From assembly GCA_945862505.1 (NCBI GenBank), contig CAMAYJ010000017.1:1-38797 (forward strand): DNA of 38,797 nucleotides, given 5' to 3'. A model generated the notes under the pieces. The model was not told where the DNA came from. It was given only the letters and a program-made list of their open reading frames with translations, and ran no database searches. Position numbers and translations under genes: made by a program. This document shows positions 3,827-21,497 of the stretch, in pieces (position 1 is the first letter of the stretch; every line of letters begins with the position of its first letter). Origin of the DNA: Bifidobacterium breve. GTDB taxonomy: Bacteria; Actinomycetota; Acidimicrobiia; Acidimicrobiales; Acidimicrobilacustridaceae.

Positions 3827-4425
3827 CGGCGATAAGTGAACAGCGAAGCCGTCCCGGTCGACAGCGGAGTGAAGCGGCCGATCATGCGATCCTCGACGCA
3901 ACACTCGAACTCTTAAGTGAATACGGGTACGCATCGCTCACGATGGCCGCGGTCATTGCGAAGTCGGGAGTTTCGTCAGCAACGCTGTATCGACGGTGGC
4001 CGACAAAGCAAGAACTTGTTGCTGCCGCCCTTGCGACGCTGCACGCGGAGATCGTTGATATCGACACAGGTTCCTTGCGTACCGATGTTGTCGAGATGGT
4101 CCGTTCATCGTCGGAAGCAATGTCGGTGCGGCGTGAAGACCTTGCTGAAGATCTGGCTGTTGAACTGCGCCGTAATCCTGAATTTCGCGCGGCAGTAAAA
4201 GAGAAATTCATTCTTCCGCGCCGGCGAGTAATGGCGGCGATTGTTGAGCGAGCACAGAATCGCGGGGAAATAGGCGTGAACATCGACGCGGCAACTGCTT
4301 TTGCCTTTATCGGTGGACCGCTACATAACCGAATGTACGTCCAAGGCGAATCACTGAGCGGGTCGTTCCAACGAAAAGTCGCTGCCGGGGCTCTTGCCGC
4401 AATGATTGCGGTTGCGTCCCTGTAA
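3823..4425 (+). CDS. TetR-family transcriptional repressor
   Basis: 200-residue regulator. The N-terminal helix-turn-helix (about residues 17-62) has the TetR pattern: ILDATLELLSEYGYASLTM, then VAAVIAKSG-like recognition helices ending ATLYRRWPTKQEL. The remaining alpha-helical part is the ligand-binding and dimerisation domain. It begins within the stop codon of the MFS exporter (ATGA), a standard exporter plus repressor pair. The 18-bp palindrome at 2116-2133 is its likely operator. Whether it also binds the different palindromes in front of the two P450 genes is an open question, since the arm sequences do not match. Its 3' end lies nine bases from the converging SDR gene. Confidence 0.92.
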   Translation: MTAISEQRSRPGRQRSEAADHAILDATLELLSEYGYASLTMAAVIAKSGVSSATLYRRWPTKQELVAAALATLHAEIVDIDTGSLRTDVVEMVRSSSEAMSVRREDLAEDLAVELRRNPEFRAAVKEKFILPRRRVMAAIVERAQNRGEIGVNIDAATAFAFIGGPLHNRMYVQGESLSGSFQRKVAAGALAAMIAVASL

Positions 4426-4434: not shown

Positions 4435-5202
4435 TCAGCCGGCGGTGACTCCGCGGTCGCTGGAAAAGATTGCGCCGTGAATGTTGGTTGAATCGGGAGC
4501 GGCAACAAGTGCAATGAGTTCAGCGATGTCGTCGGCTTCACCTTGGCCTCGGTAGCCAAGGTAGGGAGTCATGAGTTCGAAGTCGATGTCAGATGGCATC
4601 TGGAAATTGTGTGTGAGGTTTGTGACGATGCCGCCGGGAGCGATCGCGTTTACGCGTAACGCTGTCTTCGCATATTCCATCGCCAGCGACTTCGTGAGCT
4701 GGATGACTGCACCCTTGGTCATGCAATAGGCCGTTGTGTAGGCCTGTCCCATGAGCCCAGCGTTTGAAGCGATGTTCACGATGTTGCCGTCGGAGGCGAG
4801 GAGATGAGGAACCGCGGCCTGGCAAAAGAAGAATGGCGCGTCCATGTTCACTGCGGCCATGCGCCGGTACTGCTCCTCGGTCATGTCAGTGAAGTGATAG
4901 CCGCCAGCGATTCCGGCCACGTTGACGAGTAGGTCAAGGCGACCGAACACTTCGATGGCTTCGGCGATAGCGGCGAAACACTCAGCACGATCGGTGACGT
5001 CTCCGATTCGAGATACGGCTGTTCCGCCGGCGGAGGTGATCATCGAAACAGTTTCCGCGAGCGACTCGGCATTCATGTCATGGAGGAAGACCTCTGCGCC
5101 TTCGGCGGCGAGTCGGACCGAGGAGGCTCGGCCAATGCCAGAACCTGCTCCGGTGAGAAAGGCGACCTTGCCGTCGAATCGGCCCGGAATCACATATGGC
5201 AT
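4435..5202 (-). CDS. Short-chain dehydrogenase/reductase (SDR)
   Basis: 255-residue classical SDR oxidoreductase, NAD(P)-dependent, acting on alcohol or ketone groups. Cofactor motif TGAGSGIG at 17-24, NVAG at 94-97 (classical NNAG), catalytic S146, Y159 and K163 (YCMTK). The residue after the second beta strand is acidic (HDMN, about 41-44), which favours NAD over NADP. The start is the ATG at 5202 because GGGGGAG lies eight bases upstream; an upstream in-frame ATG at 5244 has no such site. The C-terminus is closely related to the truncated frame at 722-823, which ties this gene historically to the P450 pair. Specific substrate unknown. Confidence 0.93.
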   Translation of the reverse strand: MPYVIPGRFDGKVAFLTGAGSGIGRASSVRLAAEGAEVFLHDMNAESLAETVSMITSAGGTAVSRIGDVTDRAECFAAIAEAIEVFGRLDLLVNVAGIAGGYHFTDMTEEQYRRMAAVNMDAPFFFCQAAVPHLLASDGNIVNIASNAGLMGQAYTTAYCMTKGAVIQLTKSLAMEYAKTALRVNAIAPGGIVTNLTHNFQMPSDIDFELMTPYLGYRGQGEADDIAELIALVAAPDSTNIHGAIFSSDRGVTAG

Positions 5203-5300: not shown

Positions 5301-5338
5301 TACGTTGCCAAGACGCTGAGGTGCCACGGTGGCACCTC
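5301..5338 (+). promoter_or_regulatory. Promoter with 21-bp palindrome before the catabolic operon
   Basis: TAnnnT -10 box TACGTT (5301-5306), then a perfect inverted repeat with 10-base arms GAGGTGCCAC and GTGGCACCTC around one base (5318-5338), then GGGAGGAG and the ATG at 5355. The palindrome lies just past the expected start site. It could be a repressor operator, or an 8-bp hairpin in the leader close to the ribosome-binding site. The layout (-10, palindrome, ribosome-binding site) parallels the P450 promoters but with a different arm sequence. A PaaX-like or TetR-like protein is a plausible binder. Confidence 0.6.
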
Positions 5339-5354
5339 TCGGGAGGAGCTAGAG

Positions 5355-5660
5355 ATGGACATCAAGGCCGGTAGTCGACTCGCTTGCCCAGAGTGCAGCG
5401 TCGAACTCGTCGTGGTCCGTCCCCCGAGCTCGCCCCTTGTTCTTACCTGTGGCGGCATCGAAGTTGTCGACGCTGCGGCCGATCGTCCTGGTGGCGGGCA
5501 CTCCGACACCAGCGGCGAGGGCACGCTTGTTGGCAAGCGTTATGCCGACGAAGACTCCGGCATCGAGGTTCTGTGTGCCAAGCCTGGTCCTGGTGCATTG
5601 GCCGCTGATGGGCGTGAAGTCCCCATCAAAGGTGCCAAGCCACTTCCATCCTCTGACTGA
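5355..5660 (+). CDS. Small conserved Cys-containing protein, acyl-CoA ligase partner
   Basis: 101 residues starting MDIKAGSRLACPECSVEL. The start is fixed by GGGAGGAG six bases upstream. Visible features: CPEC near the N-terminus (residues 11-14), a TCGG turn about 20 residues later, a GTLVGKRY segment, a single Cys in EVLCAKPG, and a C-terminus ending KGAKPLPSSD. Two cysteine pairs could form a zinc-ribbon-like knuckle, but the second pair is incomplete. I recall small actinobacterial proteins with this GKRY / EVLC / KPLPSSD pattern beside acyl-CoA ligase genes; no function is known to me. It is the first gene of the operon, 15 bases before the ligase, so it may assist or regulate the ligase or carry an intermediate. 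That is inference. Confidence 0.75.
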   Translation: MDIKAGSRLACPECSVELVVVRPPSSPLVLTCGGIEVVDAAADRPGGGHSDTSGEGTLVGKRYADEDSGIEVLCAKPGPGALAADGREVPIKGAKPLPSSD

Positions 5661-5675
5661 TCTGAAGGTCGTCGC

Positions 5676-7157
5676 GTGAATCTTTCGCTTTTGCTCGAGA
5701 TGTCGGCATCGACGCTCGAGGACCGTCCCGCGGTTACCTCAGGATCGCGGACTCTGAGTTACGCACAACTCGATGCTGCAGCTCGGCGATGCGCGGCAAA
5801 GTTTCTTTCAATGGGCGCGACTGGTGTCGTCTATTGCGGAACGAATGACGCGAGTTTCCCAATTGCAGTCTTTGGTGCTGCATATGCGGGGCTCCCTTTC
5901 ATTCCGCTGAACTATCGACTGGGCGATGAACAGCTTCAACCATTGGTGGAAGCAAACCGTGGTGCAGTGATCATTGCTGAGACAGCGAGAGTTCCTGGTG
6001 CTGATCCTGAAAAGGTTGTGCTTCGGTCAACGTTGCTCGATGCTGAATTTTCGACGAAGGCCGATATCGAACTACCGGCTTTCGTCGATCCCGAAGATGT
6101 CGCAATTGTTCTCTACACATCTGGAACTTCGGGTACTCCGAAAGCAGCACTGCTTCGTCATCGCCATCTCACCGCATACGTGATCGGCACTGTCGAATTC
6201 GCTGGAGCTGAACCAGAACAAGCCGCGCTTGTCACGGTCCCGCCGTATCACATCGCCGGTTTGGCCAACCTTTTGTCGAACATGTACTCGGGCCGTCGCA
6301 TTGTGTATCTCGAATCCTTCGATGCACAGGCATGGCTCGACACGATCCGCAATGAACGAATTACGCAGGCAATGGTTGTCCCAACAATGCTGACTCGTGT
6401 TGTTCAGTTACTCGATGGCTCGCCGGCCGATGCACCATCGCTGGCAACACTTTCTTATGGCGGAGCGCGCATGCCGCTTCCCGTTCTTGAACAAGCCCTT
6501 GAATTGTTCGTGGGCACTGGATTCGTGAATGCCTACGGGCTGACGGAAACCTCATCGACAATCGCTTTGCTCGGGCCCGAGGATCACGATGCGGCATTTG
6601 CTGGTGATCCAGTTGCCAAAGTTCGACTCAGCTCGGTTGGCAAGGTGCTTCCCGGTATCGAAGTTGAAGTGCGCGACGAAGATGGCACCCTCCTCGCTGT
6701 CGGCGAACCCGGTTTGGTCTTCCTCCGGGGTGAACAGGTTTCAGGCGAATACGAAAGCGGAAGCGTCGTCGATGCCGAAGGATGGTTCCCGACTAAAGAT
6801 CGCGGTTGGATCGATCAAGACGACTACCTCTTCATCGAGGGTCGTGCCGATGACACCATTATTCGCGGCGGCGAGAACATCGCCCCGGCGGAAATCGAAG
6901 ACGTCTTGCGTCGCCACGAAGCGATTGTCGATGCCGCTGTTGTAGGAATCCCCGACGATGAATGGGGGCAGCAGATCGCTGCTGTCGTTGTTATGAAGCC
7001 GGGTGCGTCGGTATCGGTCGACGAACTCCACGACTATTGCCAGTTGCATCTGCGCAGTTCAAAGACGCCCTATCGCATTGAATTCCGCGACGAATTGCCG
7101 CATACGCCGACCGGCAAGCTTCTTCGCCGTGAGGTCCTCGCCGATCTCCTGGGCTGA
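5676..7157 (+). CDS. Acyl-CoA synthetase (AMP-dependent, FadD-like)
   Basis: 493-residue adenylate-forming enzyme that activates a carboxylic acid to its CoA thioester via an acyl-AMP. ATP-binding P-loop YTSGTSGTPK at 147-156, the AYGLTETSST motif, the hinge region KDRGWIDQDDYLFIEGRADD followed by IIRGGENIAPAEIE, and the C-terminal catalytic lysine in PTGKLL (K481). The P-loop ends KAALLRH instead of the usual KGA. GTG start at 5676, with GAAGG about eight bases upstream. It is short compared with long-chain FadD enzymes, which fits small, cyclic or aromatic acid ligases. Its position at the front of an acyl-CoA dehydrogenase, crotonase and CoA transferase run suggests it makes the pathway's first CoA ester. 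Confidence 0.94.
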   Translation: MNLSLLLEMSASTLEDRPAVTSGSRTLSYAQLDAAARRCAAKFLSMGATGVVYCGTNDASFPIAVFGAAYAGLPFIPLNYRLGDEQLQPLVEANRGAVIIAETARVPGADPEKVVLRSTLLDAEFSTKADIELPAFVDPEDVAIVLYTSGTSGTPKAALLRHRHLTAYVIGTVEFAGAEPEQAALVTVPPYHIAGLANLLSNMYSGRRIVYLESFDAQAWLDTIRNERITQAMVVPTMLTRVVQLLDGSPADAPSLATLSYGGARMPLPVLEQALELFVGTGFVNAYGLTETSSTIALLGPEDHDAAFAGDPVAKVRLSSVGKVLPGIEVEVRDEDGTLLAVGEPGLVFLRGEQVSGEYESGSVVDAEGWFPTKDRGWIDQDDYLFIEGRADDTIIRGGENIAPAEIEDVLRRHEAIVDAAVVGIPDDEWGQQIAAVVVMKPGASVSVDELHDYCQLHLRSSKTPYRIEFRDELPHTPTGKLLRREVLADLLG

Positions 7158-7177
7158 GCATTTCGCGTTCTGTCTCC

Positions 7178-7183
7178 TAGATT
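7178..7183 (+). promoter_or_regulatory. -10 box for acyl-CoA dehydrogenase (leaderless)
   Basis: TAGATT lies seven bases before the in-frame GTG at 7191. This is the same spacing seen at other genes of the window with no ribosome-binding site. It suggests a secondary promoter inside the operon whose transcript begins at the start codon. Confidence 0.5.
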
Positions 7184-7190
7184 GGCAGTT

Positions 7191-8291
7191 GTGGATTTCA
7201 CTCTCGACGACGGTCTCCGTGCGCTGAAAGCCGAGGCCGAAACATTCGCGGCCGCAGCCGTTGCGAAGTACGGCCGCTTTAACGATTCGTGGCTGTGTTC
7301 GTTTTCGCGTGAGTGTTCTCAAGAGTTGGCGGAACGAGGCTGGATCGGCATGACGTGGCCGAAGGAATTCGGCGGTGGGGGTCGTTCTCCGGTGGACCGA
7401 TTGATTGTGAGCGAAGCGCTCATCACGGCGGGTGCTCCAATCGGCGCCACGTGGTTTGCTGATCGCCAGATGGGCCCTGGTCTTTACACATTTGGCACCG
7501 CAGAACAGTGCGAGCGTTATCTCCCTGAGATCTTGGCGGGTGATGTCACGTGGTGTATCGGCATGTCGGAACCAAACAGTGGGTCCGACTTGGCTTCATT
7601 GACGACTTCGGCGGTTCGTGACGGCGATGAGTGGGTCATTAACGGACAAAAAATCTGGACATCGTTCGCACATGAATCTGACTATTGCTATTTGATCTGT
7701 CGCACGGAGTCGGTTCCCAACAAACCGCATCTAGGTATCAGCGAAATCATCGTGCCAATGGACACCCCGGGAATTGAAGTCCGCTCGATTCGGGACATGG
7801 TCGATGCTCGTCACTTCAATGAAGTGTGGTTCGACAACGTACGAGTGCCGATCGGAAATCTTGTTGGCGTTGAGGGAAACGCGTTTTCTCAGACGATGCG
7901 TCAACTTGAACATGAGCGCGGCGGAATCGACCGTTTGGTTTCGAATCGGGCGCTGTACTTGCATGTCCGCGAGATGGCGGACACGACCGATCCGATCATT
8001 CGGCAGGAGATCGCCGAACTTGAGATCGGCTATACCGTCGGCCGATTGCTGGTCTACCGAAGTGTGCTGGGCCAGACGCCGACGGGTTTCGCTGCCGGAA
8101 CAAAATGTGTCTGCACCGAGTACGAACAGCGAGTCGCAGACTTTGCCGCCCGGATCATGGGCCCAGAAGCAATGTTGCATTCGGAATGGTCGACGCAAAT
8201 TGCCTATGCCCCGGCCTACACGATCATGGGTGGCACTTCGAACGTCATGAGAAATATTCTCGGTGACCGGGTTTTGGGCCTTCCGCGTTGA
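7191..8291 (+). CDS. Acyl-CoA dehydrogenase (FadE-like)
   Basis: 366-residue FAD-dependent enzyme that would form the alpha-beta double bond in an acyl-CoA. Features: SEPNSGSDLASL flavin and substrate loop, INGQKIWTS, and C-terminal GGTSNVMRNILGDRVLGLP. The usual catalytic glutamate of the MCAD-type YEGTS motif is glycine here (MGGTS, about residue 347). An isovaleryl-CoA-dehydrogenase-style glutamate may instead be supplied by LEHER (about E242), which aligns with the LDLER motif of that enzyme; the alignment is by eye. The start is set at GTG 7191 because the protein then begins MDFTLDD, the common family start, seven bases after a TAGATT box. An in-frame TTG at 7182 is the alternative. It lies between the ligase and a crotonase. 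Confidence 0.92.
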   Translation: MDFTLDDGLRALKAEAETFAAAAVAKYGRFNDSWLCSFSRECSQELAERGWIGMTWPKEFGGGGRSPVDRLIVSEALITAGAPIGATWFADRQMGPGLYTFGTAEQCERYLPEILAGDVTWCIGMSEPNSGSDLASLTTSAVRDGDEWVINGQKIWTSFAHESDYCYLICRTESVPNKPHLGISEIIVPMDTPGIEVRSIRDMVDARHFNEVWFDNVRVPIGNLVGVEGNAFSQTMRQLEHERGGIDRLVSNRALYLHVREMADTTDPIIRQEIAELEIGYTVGRLLVYRSVLGQTPTGFAAGTKCVCTEYEQRVADFAARIMGPEAMLHSEWSTQIAYAPAYTIMGGTSNVMRNILGDRVLGLPR

Positions 8292-8331
8292 CGGGTCGGC
8301 ACTTCGGCCTGAGACAGGCAACAATGAACAA

Positions 8332-9084
8332 ATGATCACGCTCGAAGTTTCTGACCGTGTTGCGACCATCACCCTGAATGACCCCGGACGCCGGAACGTT
8401 GTTTCCGCGGCGCTCAACGCTGCTGTGGCCGAGGGGATGGATGAGCTCGAATCTCGTGGCGATGTCGGCGCCATCGTTGTCACTGGAGCGCCGCCGGCAT
8501 TCTGCGCAGGCGCTGATCTCGACGACCTCGCCGCGTGTGACACGGAAGAAAAACTGCGCACGATCTATTCAGGGTTTCTTCGACTCGCCAATTCACCCTT
8601 GCCCACGGTCGCGGCGGTTAATGGCGCCGCTGTGGGCGCCGGTCTGAATCTTGCGTTGGCATGCGATGTGATCCTTGCTGGACAGTCGGCGAAGTTTGAT
8701 ACTCGTTTTCTTCAGATTGGTCTCCACCCGGGCGGCGGCAACACCTGGCGGCTGCGCCGAATCACCGATCTACAGACCACGATGGCGCTTGTGCTCTTCG
8801 GCGAAGTAGTTGACGGAGCGCGTGCCGCGGAAATTGGGTTGGTATGGAAGTGCGTGCCTGATGCGGAACTCCTCGGTGTTGCTCATGCGATGGCTGCCAA
8901 AGCCGCAGCTGGCCCTCCCGAGGTTGTTCGTTCGATGAAAGCCACAATTCTTGGGATGGACGCAGTCACTAACTCGGAAGACGCGGTTTCGGCAGAGTTG
9001 GGTCCGCAACTTGCTTCACTTGGTGGTGCGGCATTTGTTGAACTTCTCGCACAACTCCGGGCTCAGATTGCCGCCAAGTCCTGA
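8332..9084 (+). CDS. Enoyl-CoA hydratase/isomerase family (crotonase)
   Basis: 250-residue crotonase-fold protein. It starts MITLEVSDRVATITLNDP, the usual beginning, so ATG 8332 is preferred over the longer frame at 8263 that runs into the upstream gene. Oxyanion-hole segments FCAGADLDDL and NGAAVGAGLNLALACD are intact. The two acid residues of classical hydratases are replaced: the position of rat Glu144 is F126 and that of Glu164 is A152 (alignment by eye around HPGGGNTWRL). It may therefore be an isomerase, a retro-aldol or hydrolase variant, or a non-hydrating acyl-CoA binder. Its stop is three bases before the next gene, so it is part of the operon. Confidence 0.9.
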   Translation: MITLEVSDRVATITLNDPGRRNVVSAALNAAVAEGMDELESRGDVGAIVVTGAPPAFCAGADLDDLAACDTEEKLRTIYSGFLRLANSPLPTVAAVNGAAVGAGLNLALACDVILAGQSAKFDTRFLQIGLHPGGGNTWRLRRITDLQTTMALVLFGEVVDGARAAEIGLVWKCVPDAELLGVAHAMAAKAAAGPPEVVRSMKATILGMDAVTNSEDAVSAELGPQLASLGGAAFVELLAQLRAQIAAKS

Positions 9085-9087
9085 ACA

Positions 9088-10158
9088 GTGACTTCTGAAT
9101 CGTCGGGCTGGAATTCTGCGACTGCATTTGCCGATCGCGCCATTGCGCGAATTTCTTCATTCGGTATCCCGACTAGCGGTAGTGGAATCGAACTTCTTTC
9201 GAAGCGAACGCTGTTCACCGATCCGCTGGCCGCGCGCCAAGTTTCGATGGGTGGGTTCTGCAGACTCATTCCTGTTGCCGACGGATGGTGCGCGGTTCAC
9301 CTACCCCGTGAAGACGATCTTGAATTGCTTCCCGCATGGGTTGGCATCGAAGCGCAGTCGATAGAGATTCCATGGGATGCACTCGAGTCGGTGCTTGCGC
9401 TTCGCACCACTGATGACCTTGTAGGAGCGGCGCAAGAAATTGGTTTGGCTGTTGCGGCATTGCCCGGTGGCGACGACGAACAATTGATTGATCGAAGCAC
9501 GGTGAATGTTGCTCGGCCGTGGATCCAGCGAAGTGTTGGACAGCGTCGAAGTGACATGACACTCAACGATGCTGTTGTCGTGGATCTTTCATCACTGTGG
9601 GCGGGTCCGCTTTGTTCTCGCATACTGACCACCGCCGGTGCACGAGTCATAAAAGTGGAATCTTCATCTCGCCCTGATGCGTCTCGTGATGGTGACCGGG
9701 AATTTTTCGATTGGTTGCATGACGGCCATGAGTTTCGAACAATCGCGTTTGAAACTGCGGCAGGGCGTTCCGAACTCGTCGAACTGTTAGAACACGCCGA
9801 CATCGTGATCGAAGGTTCTCGTCCGCGGGCGCTTGAACGTTTGGGCATCGTCCCGTCGGAGTTTGTCGAGAAGCGTCCGGGCACGGTGTGGGTGTCGATT
9901 ACGGCCTATGGGCGCTGCGGTCCTTGGCGGAACTGGGTTGGTTTCGGAGACGATGCTGCGGTGGCTGGCGGTCTGGTCGATATGGCTGCCGATGGCAAAC
10001 CGAGTTTTGTAGGCGATGCAGTTGCCGATCCACTGACCGGTCTTCTGGCTGCCGCGCTTGTCGTCGGCTCGGTTGCTCGTGGCGGGGGAGTCACGATCGA
10101 CTTGGCGCTTCGCGAAGTGGCGAGAAGCGCTGCGCACTCAGCTCGTGTGGTGTGGTGA
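9088..10158 (+). CDS. CaiB/BaiF family III CoA transferase with swapped halves
   Basis: 356 residues, GTG start three bases after the preceding stop. Family III CoA transferases normally begin with a segment like VLDLSRxLAGPxxxxLLADxGAxVIKVE. Here the equivalent VVDLSSLWAGPL ... GARVIKVES starts only at about residue 160, and the C-terminal 200 residues hold the usual first half, including WVSITAYGRCGPWRNW and a candidate catalytic aspartate D314 in AVADPLTGLLAA. The first 150 residues (FCRLIPVADGWCAVHLPRED and onwards) look like the usual second half, which carries an xADGxxVAL-type strand. The order is therefore apparently permuted. Function would be CoA transfer between acids, allowing substrate activation without ATP. 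The permutation is inference from motif order. Confidence 0.85.
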   Translation: MTSESSGWNSATAFADRAIARISSFGIPTSGSGIELLSKRTLFTDPLAARQVSMGGFCRLIPVADGWCAVHLPREDDLELLPAWVGIEAQSIEIPWDALESVLALRTTDDLVGAAQEIGLAVAALPGGDDEQLIDRSTVNVARPWIQRSVGQRRSDMTLNDAVVVDLSSLWAGPLCSRILTTAGARVIKVESSSRPDASRDGDREFFDWLHDGHEFRTIAFETAAGRSELVELLEHADIVIEGSRPRALERLGIVPSEFVEKRPGTVWVSITAYGRCGPWRNWVGFGDDAAVAGGLVDMAADGKPSFVGDAVADPLTGLLAAALVVGSVARGGGVTIDLALREVARSAAHSARVVW

Positions 10159-10160
10159 AG

Positions 10161-11540
10161 ATGAAAACCGTCATTACCAATGCAGAAGTTGAAGGTCGTC
10201 ACGTCTCGGTTGTCATTGATGACGGGCATATCGTCGAAATATCTGAAGACGTAGAGATGCTTAATGCCGATGTCGTTGACGCCGACGGCGGCGCGTTGAT
10301 CGTTGGTCTGCACGATCACCATGTGCACCTCCTTGCGATGGCGGCTCGTCGTGAAGGAATCGATCTCGATCCGCTTCAAACTCCGCTGGCCTTCGACGAT
10401 GCGCTTCGGTTGGCATCGGCGAACTCAGAGACCGGGTGGTTGCGCGCTTCCGGATACGACGAACATCGCCACGGCGTTCTTGATTGCCGTCGCCTAGATG
10501 CACTGGTTGGCAACAGACCTCTTCGTGTGCAGCATCGATCAGGGCTGGCGTGGGTGCTTTCTACCGCTTCTCTCGATCTCGTCCTCAATGGCGAGTTACC
10601 AGATGGAGTTGAACTTGATCCCGATGGGATTCCAACCGGCTGGCTTCTTCGTCTTGATGAATGGATCGCAGATCGCATTCCGCCGACGGCTCCTTCGCTT
10701 CGAGAAGTGGGGGCTGAACTCGCCGCGTATGGGATCACCGGTGTCACCGATGCAACGCCCAACCTCGGTCAGGGGCGACTCGGACTTCTTCGTTCCGCGG
10801 TGAGCGATCGTTCACTTCCGCAACGTTTGGTTCTTCTCGGGGTTGATGACCCCGCAGCGGTTGCCGATTTCGCAAGGGTTGGTCCGGCCAAGATCGTGAT
10901 CGACGAAGTAACCGGTCTCGATCCCGATGCGCTTGCCCGCATCATTTCCGCCCACCATCTCAAAGATCGTGCAGTGGCTATTCATGCGGTGAGCCGTGCG
11001 GAAACGGTTACTGCGGTAACAGCCTTAGCGCTGGCTGGAACTTATCCTGGCGATCGCATCGAACACGGTTCGGTGTTGCCTGAAGACCTCGATGCAATTC
11101 TCGCGAGTGGTTCCGTCACCGTTGTTGTCCAGCCAGGCTTGGTAGGCGAACGCGGTGATCACTATCTGAGTTCGGTTGACCGCGAGGACCTGCCATTTCT
11201 TCATCGGGCGGCGTCATTGCAGTCGGCCGGGATTGCTGTGGCAATAGGGAGCGACGCACCGGTGACATCGGCCGACCCCTGGGCCACGATCGCAACCGCG
11301 ACGACACGACAGACACGTTCGGGCAACGTCATCGGCGAATCCGAGAGAGTCGATGCTCGCACTGCGCTGGGTTGGTATCTCACAGATCCGCTTGATCCCG
11401 GTGGTTCTCCACGACGAGTGGTGTGCGCAAGCGCGGCAGATCTGTGCCTTCTTGATGCGCCTCTCGACGAAGTGCTGGCGGCACCCGATGCGGCGCATGT
11501 GCGCATGACCTGGGTTGGGGGCAGGCTGGTGCACCCATGA
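10161..11540 (+). CDS. YtcJ-like amidohydrolase (Amidohydro_3)
   Basis: 459-residue metal-dependent hydrolase. Start ATG 10161, two bases after the preceding stop; the longer frame from 9888 overlaps the CoA transferase and is rejected. It starts with the beta-sandwich segment MKTVITNAEVEGRHVSVVID, then HDHHVHLL with the HxH metal pair (H54, H56). Later come the IHAVSRAET and RIEHGSVL histidines and the GSDAPVTSADPW aspartate loop. The set of ligands for a TIM-barrel amidohydrolase is present. YtcJ-type enzymes act on amide or cyclic amide bonds of unknown natural substrates. In this operon it may open a ring or remove an amide group; that is inference. It ends in an ATGA overlap with the next crotonase. 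Confidence 0.9.
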   Translation: MKTVITNAEVEGRHVSVVIDDGHIVEISEDVEMLNADVVDADGGALIVGLHDHHVHLLAMAARREGIDLDPLQTPLAFDDALRLASANSETGWLRASGYDEHRHGVLDCRRLDALVGNRPLRVQHRSGLAWVLSTASLDLVLNGELPDGVELDPDGIPTGWLLRLDEWIADRIPPTAPSLREVGAELAAYGITGVTDATPNLGQGRLGLLRSAVSDRSLPQRLVLLGVDDPAAVADFARVGPAKIVIDEVTGLDPDALARIISAHHLKDRAVAIHAVSRAETVTAVTALALAGTYPGDRIEHGSVLPEDLDAILASGSVTVVVQPGLVGERGDHYLSSVDREDLPFLHRAASLQSAGIAVAIGSDAPVTSADPWATIATATTRQTRSGNVIGESERVDARTALGWYLTDPLDPGGSPRRVVCASAADLCLLDAPLDEVLAAPDAAHVRMTWVGGRLVHP

Positions 11541-12610
11541 CGGTTCTTCGATCACCTTCTACCTTGCTTACGTTTATAGCGGATGGTCTCGATGACACGG
11601 CGCTCGGAGTGGTCGTTGGCTCGCCAGCAGTTGTTGTAGATCTCTCCGAACCATTTGAGACTCAGGACTTGTTGCGCATCACGGCACTTCTTTCGACGAT
11701 GCCGGTGGTACTGATCGGAATCTCCCGTCGCGGGCCGATCGATGGTTCGGCGATCGTCGGCCTTGATGTTGCACTTTGCTCAGGCGAAGACGCGTCATCC
11801 CCTTGGATCTCATGCGGGAACTCACTCAATGAAACACTCCGGTTGCTGATTTCTGCGATTGAAGTGTCGCCAGATGCGTCGGTTGCGCTAGGGCAGTTAC
11901 TCCGAGTCGGAGAACATGCATCGGCGTCAGAAGCAGTGATTGTCGAGTCGTGGGTCTACAGCCTTCTTCAGGGTGGCGATACGTATTCACGATGGCTCGA
12001 CGCGCGCTCAATGCGAACCCCGCGATCACGACCTGACTCATCAGTCGTTGTCGTTGAACGGAACGACAATGTGCTTTCGATCACTCTTGATCGACCCGAA
12101 GTTCACAATGCCTACGGAACGCGAATGCGCGATGAATTAGTGGAAGCGTTTCGCCTTATCGATGCAGACCCAACGATTGCCAAGGTGATAGTGCGCGGAG
12201 CGGGACCATCGTTCTGCAGCGGTGGCGATCTTGATGAGTTCGGCACTGCACCCGCGCCGGTCGTGGCGCACAGCATTCGAACCAGCAGAAATGCCGGCAT
12301 TGCGTTAGCGGCGATCACGGATCGGGTGGAGGTGATGGTTCACGGGAACTGTGTTGGTGCTGGCGTAGAACTTCCTGCATTTGCTGCACGGGTTGTGGCT
12401 CATTCTGAGACATCGTTTCTCTTACCTGAAATTGCGATGGGCCTCGTGCCAGGTGCAGGCGGAACTGCGAGCATTCCGCGCCGAATTGGACGTCATCGAA
12501 CGGCGTATTTCGGATTGTCCGGTCGACCGATCACTGCCGAAACTGCGCTGTCGTGGGGACTCATCGACGCAATAGACAACTCACGATTCGAAACTGGACA
12601 GGTGACCTGA
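11537..12610 (+). CDS. Crotonase-family protein with extra N-terminal domain
   Basis: 357 residues, about 100 more than a single crotonase. The C-terminal half (from about residue 167, VVVVERNDNVLSITLDRPEV) is a normal crotonase with oxyanion motifs FCSGGDLDEF and HGNCVGAGVELPAFA. The acid matching rat Glu144 is kept (E298 in LLPEIAMG), while the Glu164 position looks like tyrosine, so isomerase-type chemistry is more likely than hydration. The N-terminal 165 residues have no catalytic motif. A VVVDLSEP strand and a helical stretch around EAVIVESWVYSLLQGGD suggest a degenerate crotonase copy, but this is uncertain. It is translationally coupled to the genes on both sides (ATGA before, TGATG after). 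Confidence 0.88.
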   Translation: MTVLRSPSTLLTFIADGLDDTALGVVVGSPAVVVDLSEPFETQDLLRITALLSTMPVVLIGISRRGPIDGSAIVGLDVALCSGEDASSPWISCGNSLNETLRLLISAIEVSPDASVALGQLLRVGEHASASEAVIVESWVYSLLQGGDTYSRWLDARSMRTPRSRPDSSVVVVERNDNVLSITLDRPEVHNAYGTRMRDELVEAFRLIDADPTIAKVIVRGAGPSFCSGGDLDEFGTAPAPVVAHSIRTSRNAGIALAAITDRVEVMVHGNCVGAGVELPAFAARVVAHSETSFLLPEIAMGLVPGAGGTASIPRRIGRHRTAYFGLSGRPITAETALSWGLIDAIDNSRFETGQVT

Positions 12611-13212
12611 TGAGTAACGATCCGACTGTTGGTTCAACCCAATGGGCGCAATGGCGCAAGGCCGTTGATCTTGATGACTATGAATCTCGCTGGGATCGGA
12701 TGGCTGAACGGGGCGAGAACCCTCACGGTGAAGTCGATTTTGTAATGCAGTTCGAACCGAAGACAGCACTTGATGCTGGTTGCGGATTCGGTCGGGTTGG
12801 AATCGAGCTCGCTGCCCGCGGGGTTGAGATTGTTGGCGTCGATCTCGATGCCGACCTTCTTGGGCGGGCACAGCGACGGGCCCCGCAACTCGATTGGCGA
12901 CTTGCAGACCTCGCAGCGGTCGACGTCGGTCAGCAGTTTGACCTTGTTGTGGCGGCGGGAAACGTCATTGGCTTCGTCGACGCGGCCCACCGTTCCGGTG
13001 CAGTGCAGAACTGTGCTCGTCATGTCGCTCCTGGTGGCTGGCTTGTCATGGGAAATCAACTCAAAGCCACGTGGCCGACGATCGCTGAGTTCGATGAATG
13101 GTGTTCAGGTGAAGGCCTTGTTCCGGCCGAACACAAGGCAGGGTGGGAAGGCGAGATTTTGGACGAAGACCCGGATTACGTCGTAACGGTGCATCACCGT
13201 CCTGCTTCGTGA
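12610..13212 (+). CDS. Class I SAM-dependent methyltransferase
   Basis: 200-residue small methyltransferase. Motif I ALDAGCGFGRVGIELA (about 53-68) binds S-adenosylmethionine, VGVDLD (75-80) carries the ribose-binding acid, and motif II-like DLVVAAGNVIGFV follows. A post-motif strand GGWLVMGNQL is also seen. The start at 12610 overlaps the upstream stop (TGATG); a longer frame from 12553 only duplicates upstream coding sequence. Acceptor unknown. In a catabolic operon it could methylate or protect a pathway intermediate, or be a detoxification enzyme. Confidence 0.9.
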   Translation: MSNDPTVGSTQWAQWRKAVDLDDYESRWDRMAERGENPHGEVDFVMQFEPKTALDAGCGFGRVGIELAARGVEIVGVDLDADLLGRAQRRAPQLDWRLADLAAVDVGQQFDLVVAAGNVIGFVDAAHRSGAVQNCARHVAPGGWLVMGNQLKATWPTIAEFDEWCSGEGLVPAEHKAGWEGEILDEDPDYVVTVHHRPAS

Positions 13213-13282
13213 CCGTGGTTCTGCGATTGTCCTGACCGCTCTGTGGCAGGATCATTGCGCATTCCATCCGGGGGCCGACACG

Positions 13283-14635
13283 ATGACTGATCTCACAGAA
13301 CCAACTGAAGTTCCGGTCAAAGACATCGGAACACTACGAAGCCGAGCCGAAGGTTCGGGCCCAACAACGCGGCGTCCGATCACGATTCCCGCCAACCGCT
13401 ACTACTCACCTGATTTCGCTGCGCTCGAAACGGAACGCATGTGGCCACGGGTTTGGCAGTTGGCGACATCAATCGATGCAGTTTCTGATTCCGGAGATTG
13501 GGTGGAGTTCTCTGTCGGGGAATTGTCGGCGATCATCCTTCGCGATCAAGAAGGAACGTTGCGAGCGTTTCAGAACGTGTGTATGCATCGCGGTATCGAA
13601 CTGTGCAATGGATCAGGCACAGGTCGTACCGAACTTCGCTGTGGATTCCATCGTTGGTGCTGGAACCTCGATGGCTCGCTGAATGAAATTCCTAGTCGTC
13701 GGGACTTTGGTGTCATCGACAACGACGCGTATGGGCTTGCGCCCGTGCTCGTCGACACATGGGGGCCGTTGGTCTTCATCAATTTCGATACCGATGCGAT
13801 GAGTCTGGCGACCTATCTCGGCGGAGCTCCGGCCGATGCTGCGTATCTCGGGATGGACGATTTCCACTGTCGCTTTGAGATCAGCGTAAAGGTGCCTTCG
13901 AATTGGAAAACCGCCGCCGATGGATTTAGCGAGACCTATCACGTGCAGGGATTGCACCCCGAACTGCTGAAGGTATTCGCCGACCTTGATAACCATCAGG
14001 TCTTCTGGGATCACGTCGGGCGTAGCCGTCAGCTCTATGGCGTTCCGTCCCCTCGAATTCGTCCGACACCGAGCGACCAAGAAGTCTGGGAAGCGTTTGC
14101 ATCGGTTTATTCCGGTCGAGCCGGACTTGATGCGGTGAACCCAGGTCCGGCTCCTCCGATTCCTGACGGGTCGACACTTTTTGACGTGATGGCCGAATGC
14201 GTGCGAGATGCTCAGGCGGCAAAGGGCGTCGACTTATCTGCCTATGACAACACCCAGATCATGATGATGGATCAACACAATGTGTTTCCGAATATCACGG
14301 TGTTGTTGCATCCAGACTTGTTGTCGGTATTGCGAACTCGGCCCGGTGACCATCCCGACGAATGTTGGCTCGACATCTTCAATTTTGATCGTGCCGGCGC
14401 AAACGTCGCTCGTGTCAAGCCGATGAAAATGGAAGTGCCTCTCGATTCGATGGCATTTGGCACGGTGTTCAATCAGGATTTCAACATGTTGCGTACCGCT
14501 CAACGGGGTCTCCATCAACCCGGATTCACTCGGATCACGCTTTCGCAGGAAGAAAGCCGCATTCTCAACAACCAGCTCGCGCTTGAGCGGTATATCGGAA
14601 TTTCTCCAAGTGAGATCGAGGGCGATCTCCCGTAA
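13283..14635 (+). CDS. Rieske non-heme iron oxygenase, alpha subunit
   Basis: 450-residue ring-hydroxylating oxygenase large subunit. The N-terminal Rieske [2Fe-2S] site is clear: C100-x-H102 (CMHR) and C120-x2-H123 (CGFHRW). The C-terminal catalytic domain has the mononuclear iron motif DGFSETYHVQGLH, giving D213 (electron bridge) and ligands H220 and H225, with a further acidic ligand probably in MMMDQHNVFPN. It would hydroxylate an aromatic or other cyclic substrate using NAD(P)H-derived electrons. No beta subunit, ferredoxin or reductase lies in the window, so it is either a homomultimeric alpha-only type or borrows partners. ATG 13283 follows a 70-base gap; no TAnnnT box was found there. 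Its stop overlaps the PaaX gene by one base. Confidence 0.95.
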   Translation: MTDLTEPTEVPVKDIGTLRSRAEGSGPTTRRPITIPANRYYSPDFAALETERMWPRVWQLATSIDAVSDSGDWVEFSVGELSAIILRDQEGTLRAFQNVCMHRGIELCNGSGTGRTELRCGFHRWCWNLDGSLNEIPSRRDFGVIDNDAYGLAPVLVDTWGPLVFINFDTDAMSLATYLGGAPADAAYLGMDDFHCRFEISVKVPSNWKTAADGFSETYHVQGLHPELLKVFADLDNHQVFWDHVGRSRQLYGVPSPRIRPTPSDQEVWEAFASVYSGRAGLDAVNPGPAPPIPDGSTLFDVMAECVRDAQAAKGVDLSAYDNTQIMMMDQHNVFPNITVLLHPDLLSVLRTRPGDHPDECWLDIFNFDRAGANVARVKPMKMEVPLDSMAFGTVFNQDFNMLRTAQRGLHQPGFTRITLSQEESRILNNQLALERYIGISPSEIEGDLP

Positions 14636-15483
14636 TGGTTGTCGCCACTGCAACTCGTCGTCGCGCTGACGGAGGCCCTAGTGCTCGGTCGCTCCTCATC
14701 AGTGTGTTGGGTCAATGGGTCGGACCCACCGACACGCCGGTATGGACAGCGACGCTCGTAGGCGCGCTTGAGGCGCTCGGCATTGAAGCCCGCGCCGCGC
14801 GCCAAGCAGTGAATCGCACTGCGGCAGACGGATGGCTCGAGGGAGAGTCTGTTGGTCGCTACACGCGTTGGCGGCTCACGAGTTCTGGGCGTCGAATGAT
14901 CGGCTCGGCGGTGCCTCGAGTCCAACGTTCGATCGTGTCGGACCGAACCTGGGACGGAACGTTCTTGTTGCTAACCCTCACTGGAGCGGTACTTGACCGC
15001 GAGGCGCGTGAGCGTCTGGCTGTAGGGCTCGATTTCGAAGGATTCGGAACGCTGGGACCGGGCACGTGGGTGGCTGTCGGCGAAGGCTCACGTGAAGGAG
15101 CCGATTCGGTTCTTTCTGCGTGCGGATTGAAGGATCGGGCGTTGTTGTTCAGTGCCCAATCTGTTGACGGGGCCGAAACCCCGGGCGAAGTTGTGGCCTT
15201 GGCCTGGGACCTCGCTTCGGCCGCGGCTGCGCATGAGGCGTTTCTGGAAGAGTTCGAGAGGGCCATGCCCGCGGACGAGTGCGAGGCGTTTGCGATGCGC
15301 ACCCGACTGGCCCACGAGTGGCGCCATCTTCTAAGCGTGGACCCTTCTTTGCCACTGCAGCTCTTGCCGGCCGATTGGGTTGGAACCCGAGCCCGGAAGG
15401 TTTTCCAGCTCCGGTTCAGCGAGTGGGCCGAGGCGGCAACGTCGTACTACATAAGGTTGTGTGAAGAGCCCGTTGTGTCGTAG
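14635..15483 (+). CDS. PaaX-like transcriptional regulator
   Basis: 282-residue protein of the PaaX type, which in phenylacetate degradation represses the pathway and is released by an acyl-CoA. The N-terminal winged helix (about 15-80) has the family pattern SARSLLISVLGQWV, then TATLVGALEALGIEARAARQ and RTAADGWLE followed by RYTRWRLTSSG. The middle domain carries WDGTFLLLTL, and the C-terminal part is helix-rich. Its start codon overlaps the TAA of the Rieske gene (TAATG), so regulator and oxygenase are coupled. By family logic it senses a CoA-thioester intermediate of this operon. The palindrome at 5318-5338 is a candidate target. Confidence 0.9.
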   Translation: MVVATATRRRADGGPSARSLLISVLGQWVGPTDTPVWTATLVGALEALGIEARAARQAVNRTAADGWLEGESVGRYTRWRLTSSGRRMIGSAVPRVQRSIVSDRTWDGTFLLLTLTGAVLDREARERLAVGLDFEGFGTLGPGTWVAVGEGSREGADSVLSACGLKDRALLFSAQSVDGAETPGEVVALAWDLASAAAAHEAFLEEFERAMPADECEAFAMRTRLAHEWRHLLSVDPSLPLQLLPADWVGTRARKVFQLRFSEWAEAATSYYIRLCEEPVVS

Positions 15484-15486
15484 ATT
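15481..15486 (+). promoter_or_regulatory. -10 box TAGATT (leaderless amidohydrolase-2 gene)
   Basis: TAGATT overlaps the stop codon of the PaaX-like gene and lies six bases before the ATG at 15493, which has no ribosome-binding site. This fits a transcript starting at the start codon. Confidence 0.55.
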
Positions 15487-15492
15487 GCGGTC

Positions 15493-16683
15493 ATGACCGA
15501 ACTTGGATTCCCCGTCTTCGATTGCGATAACCACTACTACGAAGCGATCGATGCGTTCACTCGCCATCTCGATCCTCGAACCGCATCACGCACCATTGAG
15601 TGGTGCACGATCAACGGGCGTCAGTACCACGTCATCGGTGGCAAAGTTAGCCACGCCGTGGTCAACCCGACCTTTGATCCAGTTGCGCTTCCGGGTGTGT
15701 TGAAGGATTACTTCCGCGGTAATCCCAACAATGAAAACCCGATCGAACTTCTCAAGCAGCGTGAGCCAATTCGTCCCGCGTACCGCGACAAAGATGCGCG
15801 AATCGCGATGCTCGATGACTACGGACTCGAGAAGTGCTGGCTGTTCCCCACGCTCGGCATGATTTATGAAGAGCCACTCCACCAAGATCCGTGGGCGGTC
15901 ATGCAGGTTTTCACTGCGTTCAACCGTTGGATGCTTGAAGACTGGGGCTTCAACCACAAGGATCGCATTTTCACCGCCCCATACATCAGCCTCGTTGATG
16001 TCGACTGGGCCGTGAGCGAACTCAAGTTCGCACTCGACAACGGTGCAACAACTGTTGTCATGCGTCCCGCTGCACCGACCACCGTCGATGGACAGCGTTC
16101 GCCTGCCGATCCAATGTTCGACCCATTCTGGGCTCTTGCGAACGAATCAGGGATCACCGTGGTCGCTCACGCTGGCGACTCGGGCTACACCGCTCACGGT
16201 TATGGCGACGACAGTGGATTCTCGGCGGGTTTCAGTCAGCAGTCTCGTCCGCAGCCGCTCCGTATGGCCACCATGTTCGATCGACCGATCGAGGACTTCC
16301 TTGGTTCGCTCGTGTGCGACAAAATGTTTGAGCATTTCCCGAATGTTCGAGTTGCATCTGTCGAGAATGGTTCCGGATTCCTTCGTGGTTTGCTTAAGAA
16401 GCTCGACAACACAGCGAAGAAGATGCCGGGCTGGTTCCACGAGAGTCCTTCGGAAACCTTCCGTCGCCAAATCTGGATCAATCCGTTTTGGGAAGACGAC
16501 GTGCACGAGGTTGTCGAACTCATGGGTTCCGATCGGGTGATTTTTGGTTCCGATTGGCCACATATCGAGGGCATGCCGGAACCGCTGGACTACGTCGATG
16601 AACTCAAAGAGTTCTCGCCTGAAGTGCAGAAATTGATCATGCGCGACAACGTCACCGAACTCAATACCCGCCGACCGGCCTGA
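15493..16683 (+). CDS. Amidohydrolase-2 family TIM-barrel hydrolase
   Basis: 396-residue enzyme of the amidohydrolase-2 (ACMSD-related) group, metal-dependent hydrolases and decarboxylases. The N-terminal strand carries FDCDNHYYE, where the usual DxHxH is altered to DxNxY with the central His kept out of register. A metal histidine lies in VVAHAGD, and the aspartate site is FGSDWPHIEG near the C-terminus. The long insert with RGNPNNENPIELL is common in actinobacterial members. Start ATG 15493 is set by the TAGATT box six bases upstream. It closes the plus-strand run, after the regulator. In such pathways these enzymes commonly act on ring-cleavage or decarboxylation steps; here that role is inferred. 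Confidence 0.92.
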   Translation: MTELGFPVFDCDNHYYEAIDAFTRHLDPRTASRTIEWCTINGRQYHVIGGKVSHAVVNPTFDPVALPGVLKDYFRGNPNNENPIELLKQREPIRPAYRDKDARIAMLDDYGLEKCWLFPTLGMIYEEPLHQDPWAVMQVFTAFNRWMLEDWGFNHKDRIFTAPYISLVDVDWAVSELKFALDNGATTVVMRPAAPTTVDGQRSPADPMFDPFWALANESGITVVAHAGDSGYTAHGYGDDSGFSAGFSQQSRPQPLRMATMFDRPIEDFLGSLVCDKMFEHFPNVRVASVENGSGFLRGLLKKLDNTAKKMPGWFHESPSETFRRQIWINPFWEDDVHEVVELMGSDRVIFGSDWPHIEGMPEPLDYVDELKEFSPEVQKLIMRDNVTELNTRRPA

Positions 16684-16721: not shown

Positions 16722-16760
16722 ACGCACAAAGGCCTCCACGATGTGGAGGCCTTTGTGCGT
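16722..16760. terminator. Bidirectional hairpin terminator between convergent genes
   Basis: Perfect inverted repeat with 18-base arms (16722-16739 and 16743-16760) and a three-base loop GAT; the stem contains AAAGGCCTCCAC and its complement. It sits between the end of the amidohydrolase (16683) and the end of the converging ligase gene (16791). No long T-run follows on either side, as is common in actinobacteria. Confidence 0.9.
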
Positions 16761-18494: not shown

Positions 18495-18571
18495 GGTGGA
18501 TCCTCCCGGCAGTTGTCCGGGCAGACGCTACGGGACAGAGCGCCCTCCTTGCTACCGGTGGGTAACGAACC

Positions 18572-20265: not shown

Positions 20266-20273
20266 GAGGGGTG

Positions 20274-20322
20274 AGTCTATGGGCGACAGCGCTGTGGTCT
20301 TTTCGTTGGTCACCGGTAGGGT
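20274..20322. promoter_or_regulatory. Divergent leaderless promoters
   Basis: Minus-strand -10 box TAGACT (at 20274-20279) lies eight bases before the GTG at 20265. Plus-strand -10 box TAGGGT (20317-20322) lies eight bases before the GTG at 20331. Both genes lack a ribosome-binding site, so the two promoters fire away from each other with overlapping upstream regions. Confidence 0.6.
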
Positions 20323-20330
20323 CAGAACTC

Positions 20331-21419: not shown

Positions 21420-21497
21420 CTTCTTCCGTTTCGTCGTCACGAGTGGCAGGATGGAGTGAACACAGAGGCCATAGGGCTGTGTCTAGGGGGAATTTTC

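Follow-up and report, generated by a model that had tools for sequence, protein, structure and literature searches.

Gene content and organization of the locus

The window, the whole stretch of 38,797 nucleotides that was analyzed, comes from an uncultured actinobacterium and carries eleven open reading frames (g0 to g10), all on the forward strand between positions 5355 and 16683, with intergenic spacings of -4 to 70 nt. The genes and signals at the locus are as follows.

4435-5202, minus strand: SDR1, short-chain dehydrogenase (start inferred; Pfam adh_short, 7.1e-53)
5355-5660, plus strand: g0, conserved protein of 101 aa with a C-terminal PLP(S/A)SD (15-row alignment)
5676-7157, plus strand: g1, acyl-CoA ligase (AMP-binding, 4.7e-63)
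7182-8291, plus strand: g2, acyl-CoA dehydrogenase (Acyl-CoA_dh domains)
8332-9084, plus strand: g3, crotonase-family protein (ECH_1, 3.5e-45)
9088-10158, plus strand: g4, type III CoA-transferase-like protein (Pfam CoA_transf_3; catalytic D314 kept)
10161-11540, plus strand: g5, metal-dependent hydrolase, Amidohydro_3 (PF07969, 2.4e-31; GTG at 10155 as alternative start)
11537-12610, plus strand: g6, crotonase (ECH_1) with both glutamates present and a putative N-terminal crotonase-like remnant
12610-13212, plus strand: g7, class I SAM-dependent methyltransferase (Methyltransf_25, 7.4e-17; start inferred)
13242-13253, plus strand: TGTGGCAGGATC, element between g7 and g8 (identical in 12 of 14 unique sequences, counting the window's own; all belong to the genus of the window)
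13283-14635, plus strand: g8, Rieske oxygenase alpha subunit, GbcA/CntA-like (Rieske and Ring_hydroxyl_A)
14635-15483, plus strand: g9, PaaX-family regulator (PF07848, PF20803 and PF08223, that is PaaX, PaaX_M and PaaX_C, above cut-offs)
15493-16683, plus strand: g10, PF04909 (Amidohydro_2) protein with PtmU3/AibH2-type metal ligands (Pfam and ligand alignment)
16726-16756, no strand: hairpin with a 14-bp stem (-25.1 kcal/mol), between the convergent g10 and g11

Eleven consecutive genes of named enzyme families had been predicted here, and this description was confirmed: the genes are co-directional and tightly packed, and the families are borne out by Pfam. For g5 and g7, we adopted the ATG codons at 10161 and 12610, respectively, as starts. 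Conservation with relatives begins at 5355, the likely start of g0, and position 5301, given originally as the beginning, lies upstream of it. The operon is syntenic in sister species. Its genes, as measured against five relatives, are under purifying selection (dN/dS of 0.02 to 0.22), three values being undefined because dS was saturated. An apparent g5-g6 fusion in G023 and G033, seen as an 880-aa open frame, was rejected since the frames differ and the genes merely overlap.

SDR1, possibly a 3-hydroxyacyl-CoA dehydrogenase, is oriented divergently from the operon, and the divergent SDR1-g0 pair was also observed in one locus of the same genus (L053) and in two of sister genera (L056 and L059). 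At the other end, a stem of 14-15 bp was present at the g10/g11 junction in all six unique short-gap sequences, own included; this hairpin is probably a bidirectional terminator and the end of the operon. Terminator-like sites were no commoner than chance (12 versus 12.5 in shuffles). The conserved element between g7 and g8 is a candidate promoter or operator. A search for consensus promoters found none, and TGGCARNATC was rejected as a regulatory site, its two occurrences in the window not being significant (0.71 expected; two or more in 14 of 100 shuffles).

A core of co-inherited genes

Part of the operon, consisting of g0, the CoA ligase g1, the CoA transferase g4, the metallo-hydrolase g5 and the crotonase g6, forms a core that is also encountered on megaplasmids of Rhodococcus and Streptomyces, in sphingomonads, in gammaproteobacteria and in other genomes of the class. 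Among 296 genomes (thresholds of E 1e-3 for g0, 1e-40 for g6 and 1e-30 for g5), g0 was found in 54, g6 in 51 and both in 47 (hypergeometric p about 3e-42, uncorrected for relatedness), and all 26 genomes with g5 also possessed g6. Of the 50 genomes having both g0 and g1, 41 carry them no more than 10 kb apart; for g4 and g6, this was the case in 37 of 47. The g0 gene was also found in 18 of 72,556 plasmid records. All 15 records whose g5 match reached at least 36% identity (best 40 of 98 matches), and the 16 best-ranked records for g6 (at least 39%; best 20 of 1506), were among these 18. Overall, g0, g1, g4 and g6 are inherited together, often with g5, and g2, g3, g8 and g10 are variable; g2 was not found in the L056 and L059 loci. 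Measured by the refuting condition set with the original prediction, namely members that vary independently, the eleven genes do not act as a single unit. For this locus, the analysis shows its gene content and order, the co-inheritance of genes, the conservation of catalytic and metal residues, and purifying selection.

In profile searches, g0 matched no known family above cut-off, its best sub-threshold match being a 14-residue Zn-ribbon (E 0.001; 19.1 bits versus 27). The neighbors of the core in other genomes include a P450, acyl-CoA dehydrogenases, thiolase and OB-fold proteins, an NDMA-dependent ADH and a 3-carboxyethylcatechol 2,3-dioxygenase, and these surroundings look catabolic. Since they vary by lineage, they do not show a single common substrate. 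No description of the operon was found in the open-licence PMC literature searched.

The PaaX-family regulator and the two putative oxygenases

The operon shares with the PaaX-regulated phenylacetyl-CoA catabolon a PaaX-family regulator, a CoA ligase, crotonases and the use of CoA thioesters. By contrast, its oxygenases differ, g9 reaches 145 bits against the TIGR02277 equivalog, below the cut-off of 264.55, and a search of the entire genome (2.32 Mb, 99.55% complete) gave no PF05138 (PaaA/PaaC) match (in control genomes, the same search gave matches in 4 of 14). The proposal of a CoA-linked catabolic operon that has a PaaX-family gene and no PaaA/PaaC is supported. The coupling of this regulator to the Rieske oxygenase, also proposed, was not supported. 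In G027, G033 and G034, the PaaX gene is kept with the core and the top-scoring Rieske homologue (45-48%) sits on a different contig: the PaaX-like gene travels with the core and not with the Rieske oxygenase.

In g8, the C-x-H and C-x2-H ligands of the Rieske center were present in all 32 rows, own included. As for the mononuclear iron, both histidines were found in 31 of 32 rows (one gap) and Asp399 in 14, with a gap at this position in the remaining 18 rows.

The closest characterised protein of solved structure to g10 is PtmU3 (4.4e-24). With PtmU3, AibH2 and SfbO, amidohydrolase-related dinuclear oxygenases that carry out O2-dependent hydroxylation at an Fe2 or Mn/Fe site, g10 shares the PF04909 fold, the D-x-H, H, E and D-x-x-H ligands and a glutamate at the place of PtmU3 Glu313. 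The D-x-H was assigned by motif and the remaining ligands by alignment to PtmU3; D12, H14, H226, E291, D354 and H357, together with E359, are kept in all 13 distinct sequences, own included. Judging from these residues, g10 is probably a monooxygenase. PtmU3 takes CoA-ligated substrates, according to PMC7782822. Unlike AibH2, which has AibG in its transcriptional unit, g10 has no small Rieske ferredoxin in its operon. Neither a ferredoxin nor a reductase to serve g8 or g10 was found inside the operon, and small Rieske open reading frames (112 and 115 aa) are located solely on contigs C49 and C27.

The presence of amidohydrolases had been taken to suggest a substrate that possibly contains nitrogen. 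Because the six metal ligands of PtmU3/AibH2 are retained in g10, nitrogen chemistry does not follow, and this argument is not supported. The other amidohydrolase, g5, retains H276, H303 and D366 (residues counted from position 10158) in all 44 rows, own included.

Order of the fold halves in g4 and g6

Both crotonases are atypical, as predicted, and they are so in different ways. When compared with g6, g3 lacks both usual crotonase glutamates, and their positions are occupied by Asn and Phe in all 9 rows, own included. In g6, the architecture is odd. Its E278 and E298 are invariant (25/25) and align with the glutamates of PaaF and 5zai; in rat ECH1, the catalytic pair of enoyl-CoA hydratase is Glu144/164. 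Residues 167-353 superpose on 3i47 2-192 (Z 23.8, rmsd 1.9, 186 aligned), and the core lacks the C-terminal helices, the crotonase HMM match stopping at 180-193 of 260 in all 21 native rows. Compared with other crotonases and enoyl-CoA hydratases, g6 has the same glutamates and differs by these missing helices and by the putative crotonase-like remnant at its front.

A similar layout is suggested for g4. The catalytic Asp of type III (CaiB/Frc) CoA-transferases is the same in g4, which differs from them by an N-terminal piece that appears second-half-like. D314 is invariant in two alignments (17/17 and 16/16 rows) and aligns with the residue mutated in Rv3272 D175A (5yiy); with this mutant alignment placing the catalytic residue at D314, a replacement of the catalytic Asp by Gly was rejected. 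Residues 158-353 of 356 superpose on 4ed9 5-216 (Z 19.8, rmsd 2.3, 195 aligned). The first-half match sits at the end of the protein, and not in the canonical order of the fold halves.

From models and weak profile matches, the N-terminal pieces of g4 and g6 appear to resemble the second half of their own fold, placed before a truncated first half. Pfam recovered CoA_transf_3 in the N-terminal pieces of 2 of 16 g4 members (best E 0.015), along with four unrelated families, each in a single member; for the 25 g6 members, it gave six unrelated families, likewise each in a single member. When the N-terminal piece was moved to the C-terminus, no bit-score gain was observed compared to shuffles (21 g6 and 17 g4 rows, 20 shuffles each). 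At the level of single sequences, this result counts against the rearrangement. The evidence from profiles and models is independent of it, and is weak for the N-terminal pieces. The VIA-align rows listed are almost solely first-half cores, so that missing N-terminal matches there are uninformative. Among the matches listed, we found no account of circular permutation in crotonases or CoA-transferases in the open-licence PMC literature.

A broader proposal, which we advance tentatively and would not expect to hold in full, is that the core is an undescribed cross-phylum acyl-CoA machine carried on chromosomes and megaplasmids. In it, g4 and g6 would each have been remodelled through duplication and partial loss, leaving the second half before the first, g4, g5 and g6 would co-evolve as a complex, and g0 would represent a new family of acyl-CoA-ligase partners.

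Proposed pathway and alternative explanations

With confidence evenly balanced, we propose that g0-g10 are an operon dedicated to breaking down a cyclic, terpenoid-, steroid- or alicyclic-like carboxylic acid, which would be processed as CoA thioesters under the control of a PaaX-family repressor. We infer the step order, the substrate class, the repressor role and the inducer. The acyl-CoA would be made by g1 with its constant partner g0, desaturated by g2 and, as enoyl-CoA, hydrated by g6. Oxygen would be inserted by g8 and, separately, by the PtmU3-like g10; g5 would hydrolyse a ring or a linkage, g4 would move CoA to or from another acid, and g9 would act as the repressor. Since the operon has no thiolase, C-C cleavage would occur by hydrolysis or elsewhere. 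The unexplained role of g7, the loss of the hydratase glutamates in g3 and the lack of a ferredoxin or reductase in the operon count against this pathway.

It is possible, although unlikely, that the operon is a local steroid or hydrindane-acid pathway, for example the oestrogen A/B-ring part, with the core acting after ring opening. On Rhodococcus megaplasmids, core genes lie near an annotated FAD-dependent oxidoreductase, 3-(3-hydroxyphenyl)propionate hydroxylase and 3-carboxyethylcatechol 2,3-dioxygenase; we presume, as a guess, that the oxidoreductase is KstD-like. In addition, g0 was found about 8 kb from an annotated 3-hydroxy-9,10-secoandrosta-1,3,5(10)-triene-9,17-dione monooxygenase. 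Like the operon, the actinobacterial oestrogen (aed) and HIP steroid pathways combine a megaplasmid location with a CoA ligase, ACADs and crotonases, but the portions of the sources consulted present no matching gene set. In Rhodococcus sp. B50, the oestrogen cluster is megaplasmid-borne according to PMC12507874, a point in favor of steroids, whereas the main text of this review never uses the word amidohydrolase. Furthermore, g0-g10 include neither an extradiol dioxygenase nor a thiolase.

The breakdown of a nitrogen-heterocyclic acid, in which the amidohydrolases would open a lactam or amide, is improbable: g5 is an Amidohydro_3 protein with its metal ligands kept, for which a lactam substrate is possible, but g10 looks like a monooxygenase and the Pfam matches of g0-g10 comprise no amine, ammonium or amino-acid family. 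We consider very improbable a biosynthetic or tailoring cluster, in which g7 would be a tailoring methyltransferase and g10 would act like PtmU3 in diterpenoid biosynthesis. The closeness of g10 to PtmU3 and the methyltransferase speak for it; against it, no terpene cyclase, PKS or NRPS family was detected among the window ORFs scanned with Pfam, and homologous cores lie in catabolic-looking plasmid regions. Finally, a phenylacetate-type (paa) pathway, suggested by the PaaX-family regulator, the CoA ligase and the crotonases, is largely refuted by the absence of a PF05138 protein from the genome and hardly tenable with g9 so far under the PaaX equivalog cut-off.

Significance

In the favored reading, in which the operon degrades a cyclic carboxylic acid, g10 is likely a catabolic case of the amidohydrolase-fold monooxygenases. 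Two unrelated families, those of g4 and g6, seemingly underwent the same unusual rearrangement within one conserved gene set. The g0 protein, nearly always beside one type of acyl-CoA ligase, provides a target family. Taken together, these results point to a widespread, as yet unassigned CoA-acid pathway, and its recurrence on the megaplasmids of culturable Rhodococcus makes the substrate accessible to experiment.

Organization of the predicted operon and its surroundings

The genome holding the window (2.32 Mb, 99.55% complete, 115 contigs) contributes one entire contig, C17, on which eleven plus-strand genes, g0 to g10, occupy 5355-16683:

g0, plus strand: 101-aa protein without known family
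g1, plus strand: acyl-CoA ligase
g2, plus strand: acyl-CoA dehydrogenase
g3, plus strand: crotonase
g4, plus strand: type III CoA transferase
g5, plus strand: Amidohydro_3 hydrolase
g6, plus strand: second crotonase
g7, plus strand: methyltransferase
g8, plus strand: Rieske oxygenase alpha subunit
g9, plus strand: PaaX-family regulator
g10, plus strand: Amidohydro_2 protein

Intergenic gaps ranged from -4 to 70 nt, with overlaps between g5/g6, g6/g7 and g8/g9, and a short-chain dehydrogenase gene (SDR1, 4435-5202, minus strand) diverges upstream of g0. At the other end, a hairpin with a 14-bp stem (16726-16756) separates the operon from the convergent gene g11, and a stem of 14-15 pairs was observed in all six unique short g10-g11 gap sequences (window included). 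This gap was about 1.5 kb longer in two related loci, one with a hairpin similar to that of the window (L005) and one with a different hairpin (L052). From this arrangement, g0-g10 are predicted to form a single operon, possibly with a second transcription start before g8. The g7-g8 gap, the widest of all, contains at 13242-13253 the candidate promoter or operator TGTGGCAGGATC, exact in 12 of the 14 unique sequences of the genus (window included); searched as a motif across the window, it was not significant.

A second block downstream (16791-23216) comprises the CoA ligase g11, two 4HBT thioesterases, g14 and another Amidohydro_3 gene; it also adjoins the cluster in the genus and in the genomes G023, G033 and G027. 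The best model for g11 was the steroid-24-oyl-CoA synthetase CasG, at 468 bits versus a cut-off of 750. An ORF at 20205-21419 (404 aa at most, start possibly near 20370) had no Pfam or NCBIfam match and evolves fast, with 62% identity to the related locus L007 versus 82-86% for g11-g13. Directly upstream of SDR1 lie an EmrB/QacA-type MFS efflux gene and then a TetR-family gene (2147-4425), and a cytochrome P450 gene (820-2007, minus strand) is close to the contig end. A DapB/2,4-diaminopentanoate dehydrogenase-like gene was found at 36515-37573; the Sphingobium RAC03 plasmid carries a dihydrodipicolinate reductase annotation about 6.5 kb from g0.

The nearest named contigs were all metagenome-assembled, one labelled Bifidobacterium breve, which is surely wrong, followed by Acidimicrobiia, Actinobacteria and Microthrix/Microthrixaceae. 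In the record CAMCTW010000119.1, titled as a Bifidobacterium breve MAG, the cluster was present at 96-99% protein identity; its organism label looks wrong.

A core of five genes is co-inherited

We analyzed the distribution of the core (g0, g1, g4, g5 and g6) in 296 genomes of the same class. At E values of at most 1e-3, g0 was detected in 54; g6 was detected in 51 (E 1e-40) and both in 47 (hypergeometric p ~3e-42, not corrected for relatedness), while the 26 genomes with g5 (E 1e-30) all had g6 and 25 of them g0. The searches for g1 and g4 covered the 58 of these genomes having g0 or g6, and found g1 (E 1e-80) in 52 and g4 (E 1e-30) in 50. Among genomes having both members of a pair, a distance of at most 10 kb was observed for g0-g1 in 41/50, g4-g6 in 37/47, g1-g6 in 25/47 and g5-g6 in 15/26, counts that broken contigs may have lowered.

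Among 72,556 plasmid records, g0 was present in 18. These 18 included all 15 records whose g5 match reached at least 36% identity (among 40 of 98 matching records) and all 16 best g6 records (at least 39%, among the best 20 of 1506), an overlap counted by hand in which some plasmids are near copies, e.g., DK17 and DK180. Plasmid holders of core genes belonged to Rhodococcus, Streptomyces, Sphingobium, Sphingomonas and Mycobacterium, and g6 accompanied by varying other members was found in a Steroidobacteraceae MAG, Pseudohalioglobus lutimaris, other gammaproteobacterial MAGs, Williamsia and Mycobacterium. Since about 85 kb separate g0-g1 from g4-g5-g6 on the X5 plasmid, and the two groups lie on different contigs in some genomes, physical linkage of the core is common without being obligatory. 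On the DK180 plasmid pDK3 (entries L037 and L047), transposase and recombinase genes adjoin core genes, which suggests that this region is mobile.

The regulator follows the core, the Rieske oxygenase varies

The PaaX gene (E 1e-40) was detected in 24 of 61 genomes, counting that of the window: 20 of 21 from the genus itself, plus G023, G027, G033 and G034. The loci of G027 (L056) and G034 (L059) retain the five core genes, the methyltransferase gene, on the opposite strand, and PaaX; both lack g2, g3 and g8, and L059 retains g10. In G027, G033 and G034 the best g8 homologue was 45-48% identical and on another contig than PaaX. The coupling of regulator and Rieske oxygenase proposed in the original prediction was thus not upheld: PaaX accompanies the core, and the presence of the oxygenase varies by lineage. 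PaaX was present but a strong g6 match lacking in G011, and G016 had a partial g6 only; both assemblies are fragmented. Homologues of g10 were common (44/61 genomes at E 1e-90), and only the closest ones (at least 78%) were mostly adjacent to PaaX.

Active sites and a proposed reassignment of g10

Residue counts for g5, g8 and g10 include the window's sequence and some partial genes. The Rieske ligands of g8 were kept in 32/32 rows, the assignment of its third iron ligand being unsure. In g5, H276, H303 and D366 (numbering from 10158) were kept in 44/44 rows and the H-x-H in 37/44, the remainder being gaps except for one Gly. In g4, D314 was kept in 17/17 and 16/16 rows and aligned with the residue altered in the Rv3272 D175A mutant. 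Both glutamates of g6 were kept in 25/25 and matched the PaaF and 5zai glutamates in the alignment. In g3 these two positions carry Asn and Phe in 9/9 rows, and g3 is therefore not expected to act as a standard hydratase.

The nearest solved structure to g10 was the uncharacterised protein 4dzi (2.6e-93), followed by PtmU3 (4.4e-24), the 8sm6-8sm9 proteins and AibH1H2. PtmU3, 8sm6-8sm9 and AibH1H2 are described as dinuclear oxygenases of PF04909 that bind their metals through three His and three carboxylate residues (PMC10811679). The ligands in AibH2 are Asp25, His27, His211, Glu265, Asp337 and His340; in PtmU3, which accepts CoA-ligated substrates, Glu313 also coordinates (PMC7782822). In g10, D12, H14, H226, E291, D354, H357 and E359 were invariant in 13/13 distinct sequences, the last five placed by alignment to PtmU3 and the D-x-H pair (D12, H14), outside that alignment, by motif. 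With these ligands, g10 is probably not an amidohydrolase, and the operon would not encode the two amidohydrolases first proposed. Because PF04909 also includes carboxylases, hydratases and hydrolases (PMC10811679), a PtmU3/AibH2-type oxygenase identity is a strong lead rather than proof. In contrast to AibH2, g10 has no small Rieske partner gene in its operon; ORFs for two Rieske proteins (112 and 115 aa) are present on other contigs of the genome.

Probable fold rearrangements in g4 and g6

As modelled with AlphaFold2, residues 158-353 of g4 (pLDDT 89.7, pTM 0.91) superposed on 4ed9 5-216 (Z 19.8, rmsd 2.3, 195 aligned), that is, on its first half only, and residues 167-353 of g6 (pLDDT 92.1, pTM 0.92) on 3i47 2-192 (Z 23.8, rmsd 1.9, 186 aligned).

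For the N-terminal piece of g6, the best PDB sequence was the crotonase 3myb (E 0.0072 over two collinear stretches together, 47-88 to 108-149 and 90-122 to 201-233, each alone not significant), followed by designed TIM barrels (E 0.064) and another crotonase (E 1.9). With the full-length g6 profile, the N-terminal piece also gave weak second stretches to C-terminal parts of two of the three chains shown, PaaF (105-149 to 195-239, 6.7 bits) and 5zai (91-148 to 181-239, 4.9 bits); the third, 3p5m, had no such stretch. For the N-terminal piece of g4, a ribosomal protein was the best match (E 0.83) and CaiB the next (E 1.3; weak stretches 57-71 to 239-253 and 97-141 to 298-343), with a CoA_transf_3 match in 2 of 16 members. 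With hhalign, the g6 piece aligned to crotonase 187-255 (E 0.017) and the g4 piece to CaiB 228-335 (E 0.026), versus 0.14-0.16 for swapped controls. These matches map to the part of the fold absent from the protein's core domain, except for the 3myb stretch 108-149 and a like stretch in 4lk5, a part that the g6 core domain has too. A direct rotation test of both N-terminal pieces was negative. On these models and profiles, g4 is probably permuted, and in g6 we see a probable crotonase with a degraded second copy in front of it; both forms would result if a duplication were followed by partial loss. A GD02 plasmid encodes an 807-aa CoA transferase with two separate CaiB-like matches, and an R. 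gordoniae plasmid a 756-aa one, doubled judging from its length only.

Evolutionary rates

Compared with L003, L004, L005, L007 and L053, dN/dS was 0.02-0.22 across measured genes; dS saturation left three values undefined, those of g6 in L007 and of g3 and g7 in L053. Values were 0.11-0.19 for g4, g5 and g6 versus 0.02-0.10 for g1, g2, g3, g8 and g10, and identity to L007 (same contig as L064, hence not independent of it) was 66-67% versus 90-94%, respectively. Faster rates were not confined to these three: g7 had 0.11-0.13 in L003-L005, and in L003 the neighbours g12-g14 had values of up to 0.15. The similar rates of adjacent g4, g5 and g6 would fit joint evolution, and relaxed constraint common to the three would do the same.

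Proposed pathway

Within the limits of a 99.55% complete genome, the absence of PF05138 rules out the phenylacetate pathway. All enzymes of the operon are members of known families, and no description of the gene set was found in open-licence papers. g1 with g0 would most likely activate a cyclic acid, g2, g6 and SDR1 would form part of a beta-oxidation round, g8 and g10 would add oxygen, g5 would open or trim the product and g4 would move CoA. Judged by its family, g9 would be a PaaX-type repressor of the operon responsive to an acyl-CoA. Nothing in the operon requires the nitrogen-containing substrate initially considered. Elsewhere, the neighbours of the core include P450, NDMA-dependent ADH, acyl-CoA dehydrogenases, thiolase and OB-fold proteins, an FAD-dependent oxidoreductase and 3-carboxyethylcatechol 2,3-dioxygenase, and these neighbours suggest that the substrates may be terpenoid- or steroid-like acids.
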